Source: Chloroflexota bacterium
GTDB lineage: Bacteria > Chloroflexota > Limnocylindria > P2-11E
Direction of reading: 5' to 3'
Assembly (NCBI GenBank): GCA_005889405.1
Contig: VBFY01000056.1
Span: 1 to 46,388, forward strand
Length of the DNA stretch: 46,388 nt
Shown: in pieces, positions 24,523 through 31,766 of the stretch
How the letters are laid out: every line of letters begins with the position of its first letter
How positions within the stretch are numbered: position 1 is the first letter of the stretch
The notes under the pieces: model-generated
The model's input: only the letters and a program-made list of their open reading frames with translations
Databases searched by the model: none
Told to the model about the DNA's origin: nothing
Position numbers and translations under genes: made by a program

Positions 24523-25650
24523 TTGGCGACGAACGTTAGAAGGGCGCATGCCACACCTTCGCTGACGCTCGGAGCGCGAAGGACGATCAGGCGGAGCGCC
24601 GCGTCGCTACTCAGCTTGGGTCAGCACTCGAAGGACGGGCTCGTCCACGTGACGACGCGTCGCGTGCCGCGCGCACTCGGGGCGTACTTCGGGGCGAAGG
24701 GTCTTCGCCTTGTGCTCAACACCGCGACCGCAATCCTCGTCATGCTGCTTCCGTATACCGCCGCGACTTCGGCGCGCGCCGACGCGGCACCGACAGACGT
24801 AGCAGCCCCGACATTCGCCGCGGTCCCGAACGACGATACCGCGCGCGCGCAGACCGCTGCACGCGGCGTGATCGCAGGAACGCGCAGCCCAACCACCGTC
24901 GCAGCACCAGAGTCTCGTCCCGTTCTGTTCCGCACGATCGCGAAGGACGACACGCTCTCCACGATGGCGAACTATTACGACCTCTCGCTCGAGACCCTCG
25001 CATACGCGAACGGCATCAGCCAGGAGGACGAGGTCCTCTCGATCGGCCGCGAGCTCACGATCCCGCCGGGCGAAGGCGCGCTCTATAAGGTCAAAGACGG
25101 CGACACCGTCGAGGACGTCGCAGCGCACTTCAAGGTGGACCCCGCCGTCGTCTACTCCTTTAACGGCTTGTACTTCGAGCCCGAGCACTTCGCGGTGGGC
25201 CAGATGATCTTCGTTCCAGGCGCGGCGCTGCCCGCGCTGAAGCGAACGGAGCGCACGAAGTCGATCGCGCCACCATCGACCGCATCGCTGCCGGCGCGCA
25301 CGGGTCGTCTCGGCTGGCCGGTCAACGGCGTGATCACGCAGTACTTCTGGTGGGGCCACACCGGCGTGGACATCGCGGCGCCATTCGGCACCGGCATTGG
25401 GGCGTCCGACGACGGCATCGTCGTCGCCACCGGTTGGGTCGCGGTCGGTGGGCTGCGCGTGTGCGTCCAGCACGCCGAGGGACTGCAGACCTGCTACTAC
25501 CACACCGGTGCGGTGTTCGTGAGCCCCGGGCAGAACGTCGTCCGCGGGCAGCTCATCGCATCGATCGGCATGACCGGTGTCACGACGGGACCGCACGTGC
25601 ACTGGGAACTGAAGGTCAACGGAGTGGCGAAGGACCCGCTCGGCTACTAG
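24523..25650 (+). CDS. LysM-M23 peptidoglycan endopeptidase
   Basis: About 375 residues from TTG 24523, preceded by GGGAGGG. A basic N-terminus leads to a membrane segment (LVLNTATAILVMLLPYTAA), so the rest is outside. Two LysM modules follow: residues ~135-185 (RTIAKDDTLSTMANYYDL, ILxxGRELTIPPG-type ending) and ~190-240 (YKVKDGDTVEDVAAHFKVD, FAVGQMIFVPG). Residues ~265-375 are an M23 zinc peptidase: HTGVDIAAPFG, QTCYYHTGAVF and GPHVHWELKVNG. LysM binds glycan and M23 cuts cross-bridges, so it is a wall hydrolase. Its catalytic domain is a close paralogue of that at 6718. Confidence 0.92.
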   Translation: MATNVRRAHATPSLTLGARRTIRRSAASLLSLGQHSKDGLVHVTTRRVPRALGAYFGAKGLRLVLNTATAILVMLLPYTAATSARADAAPTDVAAPTFAAVPNDDTARAQTAARGVIAGTRSPTTVAAPESRPVLFRTIAKDDTLSTMANYYDLSLETLAYANGISQEDEVLSIGRELTIPPGEGALYKVKDGDTVEDVAAHFKVDPAVVYSFNGLYFEPEHFAVGQMIFVPGAALPALKRTERTKSIAPPSTASLPARTGRLGWPVNGVITQYFWWGHTGVDIAAPFGTGIGASDDGIVVATGWVAVGGLRVCVQHAEGLQTCYYHTGAVFVSPGQNVVRGQLIASIGMTGVTTGPHVHWELKVNGVAKDPLGY

Positions 25651-25932: not shown

Positions 25933-27162
25933 GTGTACCGAGCAGTCCACGCGGATAGAGCTGGGCGGATCATCGTTTCCGACTACGCGGCGGCGGGATT
26001 TGATGGCGCTGCGACCGTGCCGTTCGCTGATCCGATCAGGCTCCCGACCGGCGCAATCGTGCTGCACATCGAACGGGAGGCGGAAACGCTCGACCGCTCA
26101 CGTCGCGCGCGTGGCGTCGGCGCGGGTCGCTTAGCCGTCGCGGCGATCCTTCCACCCGGTCATCTCCGCACGCAGCTGCCGGCGTACGCGGACGCAACGG
26201 ACAAGCCCGATCTGGCGCCGCGCGCCTATGCGGCCGTCGCGGCCGACGATGCCGGTGACCTGGCGGTCGCGGCGGCGCTCATCGATCGCGACCCCACGCG
26301 CGACTTCGACGCGTATCCGAAAGCCGAGATCGCCGCGAGGGTCAACAACGCGCTGCGCTCCCAGCCGGCGGACCGTCTCGTCAGGCAACTCGCGCGCTGC
26401 GCTCGGGAGTACGGCTGCCGCGGAGCCGCAAACGCCTTCTATGGACGCTGGGAATGCGCGCTTCCCATCGCCGCGCCCGCGAACGAGCATCCGCCCGCGG
26501 TGATCGCGCCGCGCCTCGATGGCGAGGCCGAGCCACGCGAGCCCGCCGCGTTCCATGCCACGGCGGAGGAGGTCGCCAGTCTCGCGACGCAACATATCGC
26601 CGCGGGTGGAACGCTCGTGTCGTTCGGGCGGGCGTGCGAGGGGGAGCCGCTCCTCTCCGCGCGGCTCGTCGAGGACGCGATACGTCTCGTCCGCGCGAAG
26701 ACGGGCTCGGGCACGATCCACCTCGAGACGAACGGCTCGATCCCCGCGGCACTGCGACGGCTGGCGGCGACCGGGCTGGACGCGGTCACCATCCGCATCG
26801 CATCGGCACGCGCCGACACGTACGAGACGCTGCATCGACCCGAGGGCTACCGCTTCGCCGACGTGCGCGCGTCGCTGCGCGTCGCGACCGAGCAGCGCCT
26901 CGCGACGAACCTCGTCATCCCGGTGCTCCCGGGGATCTTCGATCGCGCTGAGGAGATCGCGGCGCTCGTCGGTGTTGCCGGCGAGCTACGGGAGGGAAGC
27001 GCGATCCTGCTGCGCGACCTCGCGGCCGACCCTCTCCGCGCGCTCGCGCTGATGAAACCGCGCGAACCGTCGATCGGTGTCGCGCGCGCGCTCGAGCGCC
27101 TGCGCGAGGAGCTGCCGCATCTTCGCGTCGGCTCGTTCGTGCGGCCGCTCGCGAGGATCTAG
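25933..27162 (+). CDS. Radical-SAM-like protein lacking the cluster-binding cysteines
   Basis: The product is 409 residues from GTG 25933. The second half follows a radical-SAM barrel family: SFGRACEGEPLLSARLVEDA, then GSGTIHLETNGSIPAALRRL, GLDAVTIRIASARADTYE, HRPEGYRFADVRASLR and NLVIPVLPGIFDRAEEI. The first half (ILPPGHLRTQLPAY, LVRQLARCAREYGCRGAANA, FYGRWECALPI) also matches that family. After RWEcALPI, relatives carry CNxRCxGC, which binds the 4Fe-4S cluster; here residues ~181-195 read APANEHPPAVIAPR and hold no Cys. The only Cys are 156, 162, 175 and 235. So a conventional radical-SAM reaction looks impossible. It abuts obg without a gap. Confidence 0.75.
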   Translation: MYRAVHADRAGRIIVSDYAAAGFDGAATVPFADPIRLPTGAIVLHIEREAETLDRSRRARGVGAGRLAVAAILPPGHLRTQLPAYADATDKPDLAPRAYAAVAADDAGDLAVAAALIDRDPTRDFDAYPKAEIAARVNNALRSQPADRLVRQLARCAREYGCRGAANAFYGRWECALPIAAPANEHPPAVIAPRLDGEAEPREPAAFHATAEEVASLATQHIAAGGTLVSFGRACEGEPLLSARLVEDAIRLVRAKTGSGTIHLETNGSIPAALRRLAATGLDAVTIRIASARADTYETLHRPEGYRFADVRASLRVATEQRLATNLVIPVLPGIFDRAEEIAALVGVAGELREGSAILLRDLAADPLRALALMKPREPSIGVARALERLREELPHLRVGSFVRPLARI

Positions 27163-28464
27163 GTGTTCCTCGATCGCGCGCGTGTGCTGATCCGCGGCGG
27201 GGACGGCGGCAAAGGCGTGATCTCGTTCCGCCGCGAGGCGCATGTCCCGCGCGGCGGACCGGATGGCGGCGACGGCGGACGAGGCGGCGACGTCATCCTC
27301 CGCGTCGATGATCAGCTCGCCTCCCTCGGTGACTATCGCAACCGACAGACGCACGCCGCGACGAGTGGCGGCGCCGGCGGTGGGTCGAACAAATCCGGGA
27401 AAGCGGGCGGCGATCTCACCCTCAAGGTGCCGCCGGGCACGACGGTGAAGGACATCGCGACCGGAGAGGTCGTCGCCGATCTCGTCGCGCCTGGTCAGGA
27501 GATCGTCGTCGCGCGCGGCGGAAAGGGCGGCCGCGGCAACGCGCGCTTCGCGTCGAGCACCCGGCGCGTGCCGCGCATCGCCGAGGACGGCCAGCCCGGC
27601 GAGCAGCGCGAGCTCGAGCTCGAGCTCCGCCTCATCGCCGACGTCGGTCTCGCCGGCCTGCCGAACGCCGGCAAGTCGAGCCTGCTCGCGGCGCTGACGC
27701 GCGCGCGGCCGAAGATCGCGGACTATCCGTTCACGACCCTCACGCCGAACCTGGGCGTGGCTCGCCTCGATGACCGCGAGCTCGTGATCGCTGACATTCC
27801 CGGCCTGATCGAGGGCGCGAGCAAAGGCGCAGGCCTCGGCGAGGAGTTCCTCCGGCATATCGAACGCACGCGTCTCATCGTCCACGTCGTCGATGCCTCG
27901 CTAGCCGATCCGCTGGCGGCCATCGCGACGATCGACGCGGAGATCACGGCGTACGGCCATGCGCTCGAGGCGCTGCCCGAGCTGTTCGCGCTCAACAAGA
28001 TCGATCTCGCGGAAGCCCGCGACGCCGTACCTCGGATCGTCGAAGCGCTCGAGGCTGAGGGTCGCGAGGCCGTGGCCGTCTCCGCCGCGACTGGCGAGGG
28101 CGTGGATCGTCTCAACAAGCGCATCTTCGCGCTGTGCGCCGCGCGGCCGAAGCCAGAAGCCGCTGCGCCGGCCGAGCGGCGCATCGTCTTCGCCGGCGGC
28201 GCCAAGGACGTGCGAGTGTCGCGCGAGGGCGAGGCCTACCGCGTGCGAGGCGATCGCCTCGAGCGCCTCGCGACCGGGATCGACTGGGATAGTCCCGAAG
28301 CTTCGGCGTACTTCCATCGTCTGTTGCTCAGGTCGGGCGTCGAAGGAAAGTTACGCACGCTCGGTGTCAAAGAGGGCGACACGGTACGCATCGGCAAGCT
28401 CGAGCTCGAATGGACGGACGCGCCGCAGCAGCTCGCGGCACCTGGCGCCAAGAAGAAGCGTTGA
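27163..28464 (+). CDS. obg: Obg GTPase
   Basis: 433 residues from GTG 27163, which directly follows the stop of the preceding gene. Residues 1-~158 are the Gly-rich Obg fold (RGGDGGKGVISFRREAHVP, GGPDGGDGGRGGDV, GGKGGRGN). The G domain (~159-335) has GLPNAGKSSLL (G1), FTTLTPN (G2), DIPGLIEGA (G3), NKID (G4) and SAATGEG (G5). A C-terminal OCT domain follows, with ASAYFHRLLLRSGVE and GDTVRIGKLELEW. Obg acts in 50S ribosome assembly and stress control. The obg-nadD-rsfS order is common and fits a ribosome/growth operon. Confidence 0.97.
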   Translation: MFLDRARVLIRGGDGGKGVISFRREAHVPRGGPDGGDGGRGGDVILRVDDQLASLGDYRNRQTHAATSGGAGGGSNKSGKAGGDLTLKVPPGTTVKDIATGEVVADLVAPGQEIVVARGGKGGRGNARFASSTRRVPRIAEDGQPGEQRELELELRLIADVGLAGLPNAGKSSLLAALTRARPKIADYPFTTLTPNLGVARLDDRELVIADIPGLIEGASKGAGLGEEFLRHIERTRLIVHVVDASLADPLAAIATIDAEITAYGHALEALPELFALNKIDLAEARDAVPRIVEALEAEGREAVAVSAATGEGVDRLNKRIFALCAARPKPEAAAPAERRIVFAGGAKDVRVSREGEAYRVRGDRLERLATGIDWDSPEASAYFHRLLLRSGVEGKLRTLGVKEGDTVRIGKLELEWTDAPQQLAAPGAKKKR

Positions 28465-29024
28465 CGCCGCGCATCGGTGTCTTCGGTGGCACGTTCGACC
28501 CGGTGCACGTCGGTCATCTCGCGATCGCGCTCGCGGCTCTCGAGTCCGTTCCGCTCGACCGCGTGCTATTCGTTCCGGTCCGGCGCTCTCCACTGAAAGA
28601 CCGCGACCCGCTCGCGAGCACCGCCGATCGGGTGGCGATGCTCGAGACCGCCATCGCGAGCGAGCCGCGCTTCGCGCTCTCGCGCGCCGAGCTCGAGCGT
28701 GAGGGCGTCTCGTACACTGTCGATACGCTCGAGCAGCTGCGCTCGCAGGGAGAGCTGTTCCTCATTCTCGGAAGCGACGCCCTGGCGGATCTCGCGCGCT
28801 GGCGGGCTCCCGATCGCATCCGCGAGCTCGCGACCATCCTCGTCGCGGCTCGACCCGGCGCTCCGGAGCCCGGTGCGATGCATGGTGCACGTGCGTTCGA
28901 CGCGCCGCGTCTGGACATCAGCTCGCGCGAGCTGCGGGCGCGCGCCGCCCGCGGTATGTCGCTGCGGTACCTTGTTCCGGACGCAGTGTGGGAGCACATC
29001 AGAAGGCGCGGCCTCTACAAATGA
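28461..29024 (+). CDS. nadD: Nicotinate-nucleotide adenylyltransferase
   Basis: 187 residues from TTG 28461, which overlaps the obg stop (TTGA). The N-terminus RIGVFGGTFDPVHVGHL holds the nucleotidyltransferase HxGH motif. Later strings LFVPVRRSPLK, LILGSDALADLARW and LDISSRELRARAARG match NadD. It converts nicotinate mononucleotide and ATP to deamido-NAD in the NAD biosynthesis pathway. Translation is coupled to obg and to rsfS. Confidence 0.96.
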   Translation: MTPRIGVFGGTFDPVHVGHLAIALAALESVPLDRVLFVPVRRSPLKDRDPLASTADRVAMLETAIASEPRFALSRAELEREGVSYTVDTLEQLRSQGELFLILGSDALADLARWRAPDRIRELATILVAARPGAPEPGAMHGARAFDAPRLDISSRELRARAARGMSLRYLVPDAVWEHIRRRGLYK

Positions 29025-29389
29025 CGTCATCCACGCGCGCTGAGCTTCCGCCGCGCGCGCTCGCCGATCTGGTCGTCGAAGCGGCGAGCGATAAGAAGGC
29101 CGAGGACATCCTGGTGCTGAACGTCGCCGAGGTGACAACGATCGCCGATCTATTCGTCATCTGCAGCGCTCGCGGTGAGCGGCAGGCGCAGGCGATCGCG
29201 GACGGCATCGTGGAGAAGGCCAAGGCCGCGGGGCAGCAGCCCTTCGGCGTCGAGGGCTACAGCGCCGGCCGCTGGATCCTCATCGACCTCAGCGACGTCG
29301 TCGTACACGTGTTCGTGCCGGAAGAGCGCGACCTGTACCGGCTCGAGCGTCTCTGGGGCGATGCACCGGTGGTGCTGCGCATCGCCTGA
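29021..29389 (+). CDS. rsfS: Ribosomal silencing factor RsfS
   Basis: 122 residues from ATG 29021, which overlaps the nadD stop (ATGA). The family strings are VEAASDKKAEDILVLNV, TTIADLFVICSARGERQ, GYSAGRWILIDLSDVVVHVF and YRLERLWGDA. It binds uL14 on the 50S subunit and blocks joining with 30S when nutrients are short. Length is normal. Confidence 0.96.
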   Translation: MTSSTRAELPPRALADLVVEAASDKKAEDILVLNVAEVTTIADLFVICSARGERQAQAIADGIVEKAKAAGQQPFGVEGYSAGRWILIDLSDVVVHVFVPEERDLYRLERLWGDAPVVLRIA

Positions 29390-29868: not shown

Positions 29869-29941
29869 GGGGCTGTAGCTCAGCTGGGAGAGCGCTTGAA
29901 TCGCACTCAAGAGGTCAGGGGTTCGATCCCCCTCAGCTCCA
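29869..29941 (+). tRNA. tRNA-Ala (anticodon CGC)
   Basis: A full cloverleaf folds: acceptor GGGGCTG with CAGCTCC, D arm GCTC/GAGC, anticodon stem CTTGA/TCAAG around loop ATCGCAC (anticodon CGC, codon GCG), and T arm AGGGG-TTCGATC-CCCCT. The third acceptor pair is G-T, the G3:U70 identity mark of alanine tRNA. The discriminator is A29941, followed by CCG, so the 3' CCA is not encoded. Confidence 0.95.
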
Positions 29942-30005
29942 CCGAACTAGAGCAATTCATTGAGCAATGCGTTTAAGACGTCAGCCGGGCAGCGGCGAGA
30001 AATCA

Positions 30006-30502: not shown

Positions 30503-30721
30503 ATGCCAAGAACGACACTGAACCTCGATGCCTCCGTCCTAGGGGAGGCCAAGCGCCGGGCCAGGGATCAGGGGAAGAGCGTTGGCGACGTCATCTCAGA
30601 GCTCGTTCGGCCAGCGCTCGCCCAGGGGAACCGGCGGCAGGGCCACCCCGAGTTTCGTTGGCGGACCGCACGGATGGGACCCGCGAGGATCGATCTGGAG
30701 GACAAGGAAGCCGTCCGGTAG
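30503..30721 (+). CDS. VapB-type antitoxin, ribbon-helix-helix
   Basis: 72 residues from ATG 30503. MPRTTLNLDASVLGEAKRRA is a ribbon-helix-helix DNA-binding start and the tail contains RIDLEDKEAVR, the usual VapB-type region that grips the toxin. The reading frame stops at TAG 30719-30721; the next codons would read ALGHG before another stop, as if the true end were a few residues later and a nonsense change had trimmed it. It lies directly upstream of a damaged PIN-domain toxin gene. Confidence 0.7.
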   Translation: MPRTTLNLDASVLGEAKRRARDQGKSVGDVISELVRPALAQGNRRQGHPEFRWRTARMGPARIDLEDKEAVR

Positions 30722-30735
30722 GCCCTCGGGCATGG

Positions 30736-31082
30736 ATGAGCGCGACGGTCGACGTCAACATCCTGCTCTACGCATGCGACGAGTCGAGTTCGCTCTATGC
30801 GAAGGCTGCGGAGCTGATCGAACAGCTCGCGGGCCCCGAAGTTCTGTGTCTCTTCCGGCCGGTGCTCATGACCTATCTGCGGATGGCCACACATCCTGCG
30901 ATCTTCCCCCGGCCGCTGTCTGTTGGGGTGGCGAGCGGGAACGTCGGCCCAGTGCTGGGGCTTCGGCACGCTCGTGCCCTGGGTAAGGGGTGGCGACTTC
31001 CGGCAGGTGTTTGGACACGCGACGGACGGCATGGTGCGTGAAAATGTCTATCGAGATGGATCGCACTCAATGGGGTCAGCGC
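30736..31082 (+). pseudogene. VapC-like PIN-domain toxin, frameshifted
   Basis: From ATG 30736 the frame reads MSATVDVNILLYACDESS and later LMTYLRMATHPAIFPRPLSV, a PIN-domain N-terminal half. About 30970-30985 the homology moves to the +1 frame: GGDFRQVFGHATDGMVREN continues the family pattern through to ~31080, while the original frame ends in unrelated sequence at 31041. A one-base change has therefore split the gene. The first-frame product (101 residues) lacks the third catalytic acid and is probably inactive. Confidence 0.65.
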
Positions 31083-31085
31083 GTC

Positions 31086-31766
31086 ATGCCGTCGCCCGCC
31101 CTCGGACGCTGCAGATTCTGCTTAAGCGAAGACGTAGCGCTGACGCGCGAGCACGTGTTCGCGCGCTGGCTCGTTGAACGGCTGCGCGCATTTCGTGCGA
31201 CACGCGCCGCGCAGTTGCCGGCCGACGCTGCGGCGGACGCACGGCTCGCCCGGCTCGTGACGATGGTCTGCGGGGCGTGCAACGCCGGCTGGATGAGCGG
31301 GCTCGAGGTGAGCTTCCGTCAAGCGGTCTTCGCGCGGTCGCGGCCCGATCATCTGGCCGAGCCGACACGTCGGACTCTTAGTCGTTGGTTCACCAAGACG
31401 GCAATGCTCGTGGCTCACTCGGCAAACAAAGAACTGGTGCCGGAAGAGCAGTGGCCGGACCTTACGGACACCATGCCCGACGGGATGCGCGTCGGTCTTG
31501 CACGTCTCCGTCGCCCGCGGCAGCCGTTGGACCTTGAGTTTGGGTACGAGGAAAGTGCGGGCACGGAGAGCGCGCGGCTTACCGGCGTCGCCGTCCAAGT
31601 CGACGACCTGGTCGGCTTGGTCACACGACGGTCGTCGGTGACGCCGGCGACGACGCTGTGGCCGCTCCGCTCACACACGCTGCGGTGGACGACCCTGCCG
31701 GTCGTGAGCCGGCTATCCGATCTCACGGGCGACGGCGCCATCGCACGACGCCATAATCCGACGTAG
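31086..31766 (+). CDS. HNH-like zinc protein
   Basis: 226 residues from ATG 31086; an earlier ATG at 31044 falls in the decayed toxin gene. The N-terminus has CRFC (Cys9, Cys12), LTREHVFARWL with Glu22-His23, then VCGACNAGWMSGLE (Cys62, Cys65, Asn66). This is the layout of HNH-type endonuclease-like proteins whose zinc ribbon frames the EH motif. The C-terminal ~150 residues have no recognised domain. DNase activity is possible but unproven. It lies in the tRNA-linked island beside the toxin-antitoxin remnant. Confidence 0.7.
   Translation: MPSPALGRCRFCLSEDVALTREHVFARWLVERLRAFRATRAAQLPADAAADARLARLVTMVCGACNAGWMSGLEVSFRQAVFARSRPDHLAEPTRRTLSRWFTKTAMLVAHSANKELVPEEQWPDLTDTMPDGMRVGLARLRRPRQPLDLEFGYEESAGTESARLTGVAVQVDDLVGLVTRRSSVTPATTLWPLRSHTLRWTTLPVVSRLSDLTGDGAIARRHNPT

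Follow-up and report, generated by a model that had tools for sequence, protein, structure and literature searches.

The gene immediately upstream of obg on contig VBFY01000056.1 of a Chloroflexota bacterium (46,388 nucleotides, all of which we refer to as the window) encodes a protein with a radical-SAM fold that has lost the cysteine motif of the radical-SAM cluster. Judging from the sequences of the window's family, radical chemistry has almost certainly gone, because about ten further invariant residues have also been replaced, several of them by new conserved ones. The family probably has a different job from a radical-SAM enzyme. Our preferred reading, held with moderate confidence, is a radical-SAM pseudoenzyme that was converted in place and serves as a core protein, acting as a binding partner or scaffold in a ribosome or translation context. 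The features of the locus are collected in Table 1.

Table 1. Coordinates of the gene, of selected residues of its product and of neighbouring genes in the window.
Feature	Position	Strand	Evidence
LysM + M23 peptidase gene, upstream	24523..25650	+	Pfam, synteny
Cys-motif-less radical-SAM-fold protein, 409 aa	25933..27162	+	ORF, PF04055, AF2, VIA
N-terminal all-β domain, ~residues 1-118	25933..26286	+	DSSP (AF2 models, window protein and L019), alignments
C156, invariant in own family and intact relatives	26398..26400	+	24/24 and 113/113
C162, invariant in own family and intact relatives	26416..26418	+	24/24 and 113/113
Former cluster loop, residues 181-194, APANEHPPAVIAPR	26473..26514	+	alignments, residue counts
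R233, in place of invariant Gln of intact relatives	26629..26631	+	R 22/24, H 2/24 own family; Q all intact
C235-E-G-E-P239, counterpart of GGE(P) SAM motif, kept	26635..26649	+	C235 24/24, 113/113; E238 23/24; P239 24/24
E265, in place of invariant Asn	26725..26727	+	E 22/24 own family; N 113/113 intact
R288, in place of Ser (proposed SAM ribose position)	26794..26796	+	R 23/24 own family; S 109, T 4 intact
obg (GTPase, 50S assembly), 0 nt downstream	27163..28464	+	Pfam GTP1_OBG E 3.6e-56, MMR_HSR1
nadD (longest ORF; true start probably near obg end)	28410..29024	+	Pfam CTP_transf_like E 1.3e-22
rsfS (ribosomal silencing factor)	28988..29389	+	Pfam RsfS E 6.1e-34

A radical-SAM barrel without a cluster motif

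The gene has a GTG start and an open frame throughout, in agreement with the initial annotation, which had taken it not to be a broken gene. The family framework that the same annotation had seen from end to end is borne out by three strings, SFGRACEGEPLL (residues 230-241), TGSGTIHLETNGS and SARADTYETLHRPEGYRF, and by profile and structure comparisons. In Pfam, hmmscan matches the protein to PF04055 (Radical_SAM) with an E-value of 4.5e-10 and 40.4 bits, above the gathering cut-off of 29.5. The match covers only profile positions 21-165 of 166, so it is the cluster-carrying part that fails. The AlphaFold (AF2) model has a pLDDT of 90.3 and a pTM of 0.88. Its best structural match is NifB (6y1x; VIA Z 17.5 for 215 residues, 3.7 Å), and all leading VIA matches are radical-SAM proteins. 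We regard assignment to the radical-SAM superfamily, and the barrel fold as modelled, as sound. None of the named NCBIfam radical-SAM families (NrdG2, MoaA, BlsE and others) scores above its curated cut-off, the best being 29.8 bits where NrdG2 requires 131; these cut-offs are missed by the intact relatives too. The all-β N-terminal domain of about 118 residues is common to the whole family, including the intact relatives.

The CX3CX2C motif that defines the cluster site of radical-SAM enzymes (PMC8124187) is missing from the loop after strand 1. As first noticed in the window sequence, residues 181-194 contain no cysteine where relatives have CNxRCxGC, and A183, P187 and V190 occupy the cysteine positions of all intact relatives. 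The intact protein of the sister family (L019; contig VBHP01000067.1 of a Chloroflexi metagenome-assembled genome), which reads CNARCVGC, aligns in register and without gaps: its ACNARCVGCIS lies opposite PANEHPPAVIA of the window protein. The motif is absent from all 25 sequences of the window's own family (f1) that cover the loop, namely the window protein and 24 relatives. Every homologue outside this family that covers the loop carries a CNAxCxGC-like motif; such proteins occur in the order's one other family (f2), the rest of the Chloroflexota, Bacillota, Vulcanimicrobiota and Nitrospirota. The sole motif-less homologue from outside (L226) is truncated ahead of the loop. These are unfiltered homologue counts, used here because the 113 intact proteins to which we compare other residues were chosen for the motif, which makes their count of the three cluster cysteines circular. 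Of the 582 or more relatives met in the contig scan, the 80 best were used, and Cys-less lineages beyond f1 may exist outside those 80.

A shift of the cysteines to another place would have undermined the initial annotation. CX3CX2C occurs nowhere in the window protein, nor in the 24 family members that cover the loop; proteins of this family contain only three to six cysteines each, and we rejected relocation of the motif. Cover by an intact paralogue was also rejected, as each genome has a single match. Five other radical-SAM proteins of the genome keep CxxxCxxC (by eye, they read as MoaA, HemW-like, LipA-like, RlmN-like and SPL-like), so the lineage has not abandoned radical-SAM chemistry in general.

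Residues replaced and kept

The changes extend well beyond the cluster loop. Of the residues shared by all or almost all of the 113 intact relatives, the window's family has lost about ten, including R204, Q233, G234, N265, R286, S288, Y300, N328, Q359 and N364. Several of the replacements are conserved in their turn, not only at positions 233, 265 and 288 (Table 1) but also as A234 and H301, each in 23 of 24 members. According to the predicted secondary structure, many of the replaced residues lie in or at the ends of the barrel strands, the site of SAM and substrate in radical-SAM enzymes. From the roles described for the GGE, ribose and β5 motifs (PMC6231123), we infer that S288 is the ribose motif; this polar residue (Ser or Thr in all intact relatives) has given way to Arg. 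The window protein therefore lacks both CNAxCxGC and invariant barrel residues of the intact family. Retained in the window's family are CEGEP, corresponding to the motif for the SAM amino group, and the PGxxD turn. Binding of SAM or another ligand may therefore persist.

The f1 changes look like coherent re-modelling rather than decay, and this agrees with dN/dS values of 0.12-0.35 by a simple Nei-Gojobori estimate, which indicate purifying selection (values for obg in the same genomes are somewhat lower, 0.05-0.29). Lost ligands and lost active-site residues in a gene kept under selection would, on the sequences, make the protein a pseudoenzyme. Decay of a pseudogene, or an assembly or binning artefact, could also have removed all three ligands, but we give this almost no credence: the frame is open in all complete copies, the gene is found at the same locus in 29 of 29 genomes, dN/dS is low and the new residues are conserved.

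The same conservation could instead reflect a new, non-radical active site, built for example from R233, E265, R288 and H301, with SAM or a nucleotide perhaps bound at CEGEP. The replacements do not drift, CEGEP and PGxxD are kept and dN/dS is low, as expected of such an enzyme. Pfam and NCBIfam, however, return radical-SAM profiles only, with none from a family of non-radical enzymes, and the conserved charged residues would equally fit a buried salt-bridge network. We think a remodelled enzyme quite unlikely.

Loss of the motif need not mean loss of all metal, because C156, C162 and C235 remain; these are present in 137 of 137 proteins, cluster-free and cluster-bearing together, and 16 of 24 f1 members have a further Cys at position 175. 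From their conservation, the three could be structural, or they could be an auxiliary metal site surviving in f1, and a site independent of CX3CX2C is possible. The corresponding alternative is that these residues, with C175 in many members, hold an Fe-S cluster or zinc at an auxiliary site that the intact enzymes would share, which would make the protein a sensor of metal or redox state and not metal-free. Consistent with this, family proteins have few other cysteines, and lipoyl synthase, which has a cluster N-terminal to its radical-SAM motif, is among the structural matches of the window-protein model. Three cysteines spread over 80 residues may nonetheless be structural, and a relocated or auxiliary metal site seems rather improbable.

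Descent and gene neighbourhood

In a search of related genomes, the gene was found in the window's genus and family and in the sister family, and it is missing from most of the class outside the order. Each of the order's 29 genomes has one copy, with no intact paralogue elsewhere; one copy (G011) is in two pieces on two contigs. The intact sister protein (L019) is matched over its full length (E-values from 1e-95 to 1e-67). In a maximum-likelihood tree, a single branch sets f1 apart from the other proteins (SH-aLRT 100), its stem is long (0.66), and the intact proteins L019/L106 are sister to it (SH-aLRT 99). The window protein thus shares full-length homology and common descent with the intact CNAxCxGC/FGQGCEGEP family. 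The simplest history is one loss of the cysteines in the ancestor of f1.

The gene order in both families of the order is M23 peptidase, radical-SAM gene (Cys-less or intact) and obg, followed by nadD and rsfS in the window and in f2. The zero spacing to obg reported initially holds, the TAG stop being followed directly by the obg GTG at 27163. Of the 24 f1 loci measured, 23 have a spacing between -11 and +4 nt and the other has a gap of 68 nt, where the start may be mis-set; in f2 the spacing is -1. The gene had also been described as fused into the obg-nadD-rsfS unit, which is apt for an operon-like arrangement and not for a protein fusion. A fusion of the M23 peptidase to the radical-SAM protein, suggested by long open frames at four loci (L018, L020, L021, L028), was rejected, as the upstream part is in another frame. 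A promoter and terminator scan gave no match and was uninformative for this genome. Further downstream, a tRNA-Ala gene (CGC anticodon) lies at window positions 29869-29943, beyond rsfS and a cupin gene, and Pfam matched neither the ORF at 30658-31041 nor that at 30990-31766.

The suggestion that cysteine loss and obg adjacency belong together was not supported by the comparison in that form. Intact relatives adjoin obg in f2 and in two other Chloroflexota families, overlapping it by a few bases in five genomes of f18 and one of f17 (obg neighbours were counted by tblastn and include Obg proteins with PLGGP as well as PRGGP). Because these proteins bear the motif, obg adjacency is older than the loss, and we rejected it as a trigger. 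Nor was a clear co-change of Obg seen: six family-specific Obg positions differ, four of which are common to cluster-bearing f2.

Within 3.5 kb, the intact gene of Bacillota and of other Chloroflexota lies 3' of rho in 35 of 79 named loci and 3' of pth in 18, and 5' of rpmE in 43, DUF1385 in 17 and prfA in 17. A block of rho, (M23 peptidase), radical SAM, rpmE, DUF1385 and prfA recurs in both phyla (L111, L095, L097, L160 and others) and suggests that the intact family may act in translation; in Selenomonadaceae the gene comes after pth. The parent family was thus already associated with the translation apparatus before the cysteines were lost.

Obg adjacency could be mere inherited gene order, and the protein's role could be unrelated to ribosomes, for example linked to the upstream cell-wall peptidase. 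In 26 family loci and in 14 of the 79 named loci (mostly Bacillota), an M23 peptidase gene does lie 5' of it, and obg adjoins M23 where the gene is absent. Still, rho, rpmE, prfA, pth and obg are the commoner neighbours across phyla, and the peptidase is presumably exported while the window protein gives no sign of export; such a passenger role strikes us as unlikely. In class relatives without the gene (L190-L206), the LysM-M23 gene stands directly 5' of obg at almost every one of the 17 loci, so that a cell-wall peptidase and a ribosome GTPase are repeatedly found side by side. Because of this direct contact, the radical-SAM gene was either inserted between the two or lost from there.

Proposed role and comparison with known systems

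In the pseudoenzyme reading that we prefer, the ancestor would have been a member of the widespread, uncharacterised radical-SAM enzyme family with the signature CNAxCxGC ... FGQGCEGEP. The comparisons show that, on the f1 branch, the three cluster cysteines and many otherwise invariant residues were replaced, while the fold, the locus (M23 peptidase, gene, obg, nadD, rsfS), the single copy and purifying selection persisted. Without the cluster, the protein should not cleave SAM reductively, and Arg288 and other replaced strand residues may fill or re-shape the old SAM pocket. Because reductive SAM cleavage would be lost, we suggest a binding role, with that of a partner or scaffold the most probable; the gene neighbours make ribosome assembly or translation the likeliest context. 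Tight coupling of the two genes makes Obg the first candidate as a partner. Obg serves in 50S assembly and as an anti-association factor, and it responds to ppGpp (PMC4028186); translational coupling may cause the two proteins to be made in step. A more elaborate version, which we regard as a long shot, combines a barrel lacking the SAM cluster with a separate three-Cys site and a new charged pocket, in a sensor or assembly partner of Obg that links a ligand or redox state with the late steps of 50S assembly.

In the open-access full texts searched, we found no description of a whole clade that lost the radical-SAM cluster motif in place and kept the gene as a core gene, and nothing relevant on rho-rpmE-prfA together with radical SAM. 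As radical-SAM proteins are recognised by their cysteine motif, cluster-free descendants are easily mis-annotated or overlooked. The parent family is, as far as we found, uncharacterised. In several phyla its gene sits beside rho, rpmE, prfA, pth or obg, which suggests that the translation apparatus has a radical modification or a factor still to be described.

Pseudoenzymes as such are already known, as are carriers with a radical-SAM fold: HemW and Campylobacter CgdH2 are radical-SAM proteins that serve as carriers, not radical enzymes (PMC10320005). They resemble the proposed role in putting the fold to binding or chaperone work. Heme binding by CgdH2 is experimental; the window sequence shares no more than superfamily membership with these proteins, and we do not imply that it handles heme. 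ThiC (PMC4389238) and Dph1-Dph2 (PMC11048331) also depart from the canonical radical-SAM arrangement, but they still hold a cluster by cysteines of their own; the window family has no new cysteine triad, only the three ancestral cysteines. The solved structures most like the window model, NifB, PFL-activating enzyme (Z 16.2), BlsE (14.8), RlmN (14.7) and MoaA (13.5), have the radical-SAM barrel and bind [4Fe-4S] via CX3CX2C, unlike the window protein; at 13-19% identity, none is a close relative.

The intact CNAxCxGC/FGQGCEGEP family (Ktedonobacteria; Bacillota such as Paenibacillus, Selenomonas and Pelotomaculum; Vulcanimicrobiota) has the same length and two-domain layout as the window protein, and the sister-family protein is 40-49% identical to its members. 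It shares with the window family the three invariant cysteines, CEGEP, PGxxD and, in f2, f17 and f18, the obg neighbour, and it differs in keeping the cluster motif together with Q233, N265, R286, N328, Q359 and N364. With a whole family lacking the motif, the gene in all its genomes and an intact sister as a ready control, the f1/f2 pair offers a clean comparison for what the fold does without the chemistry.
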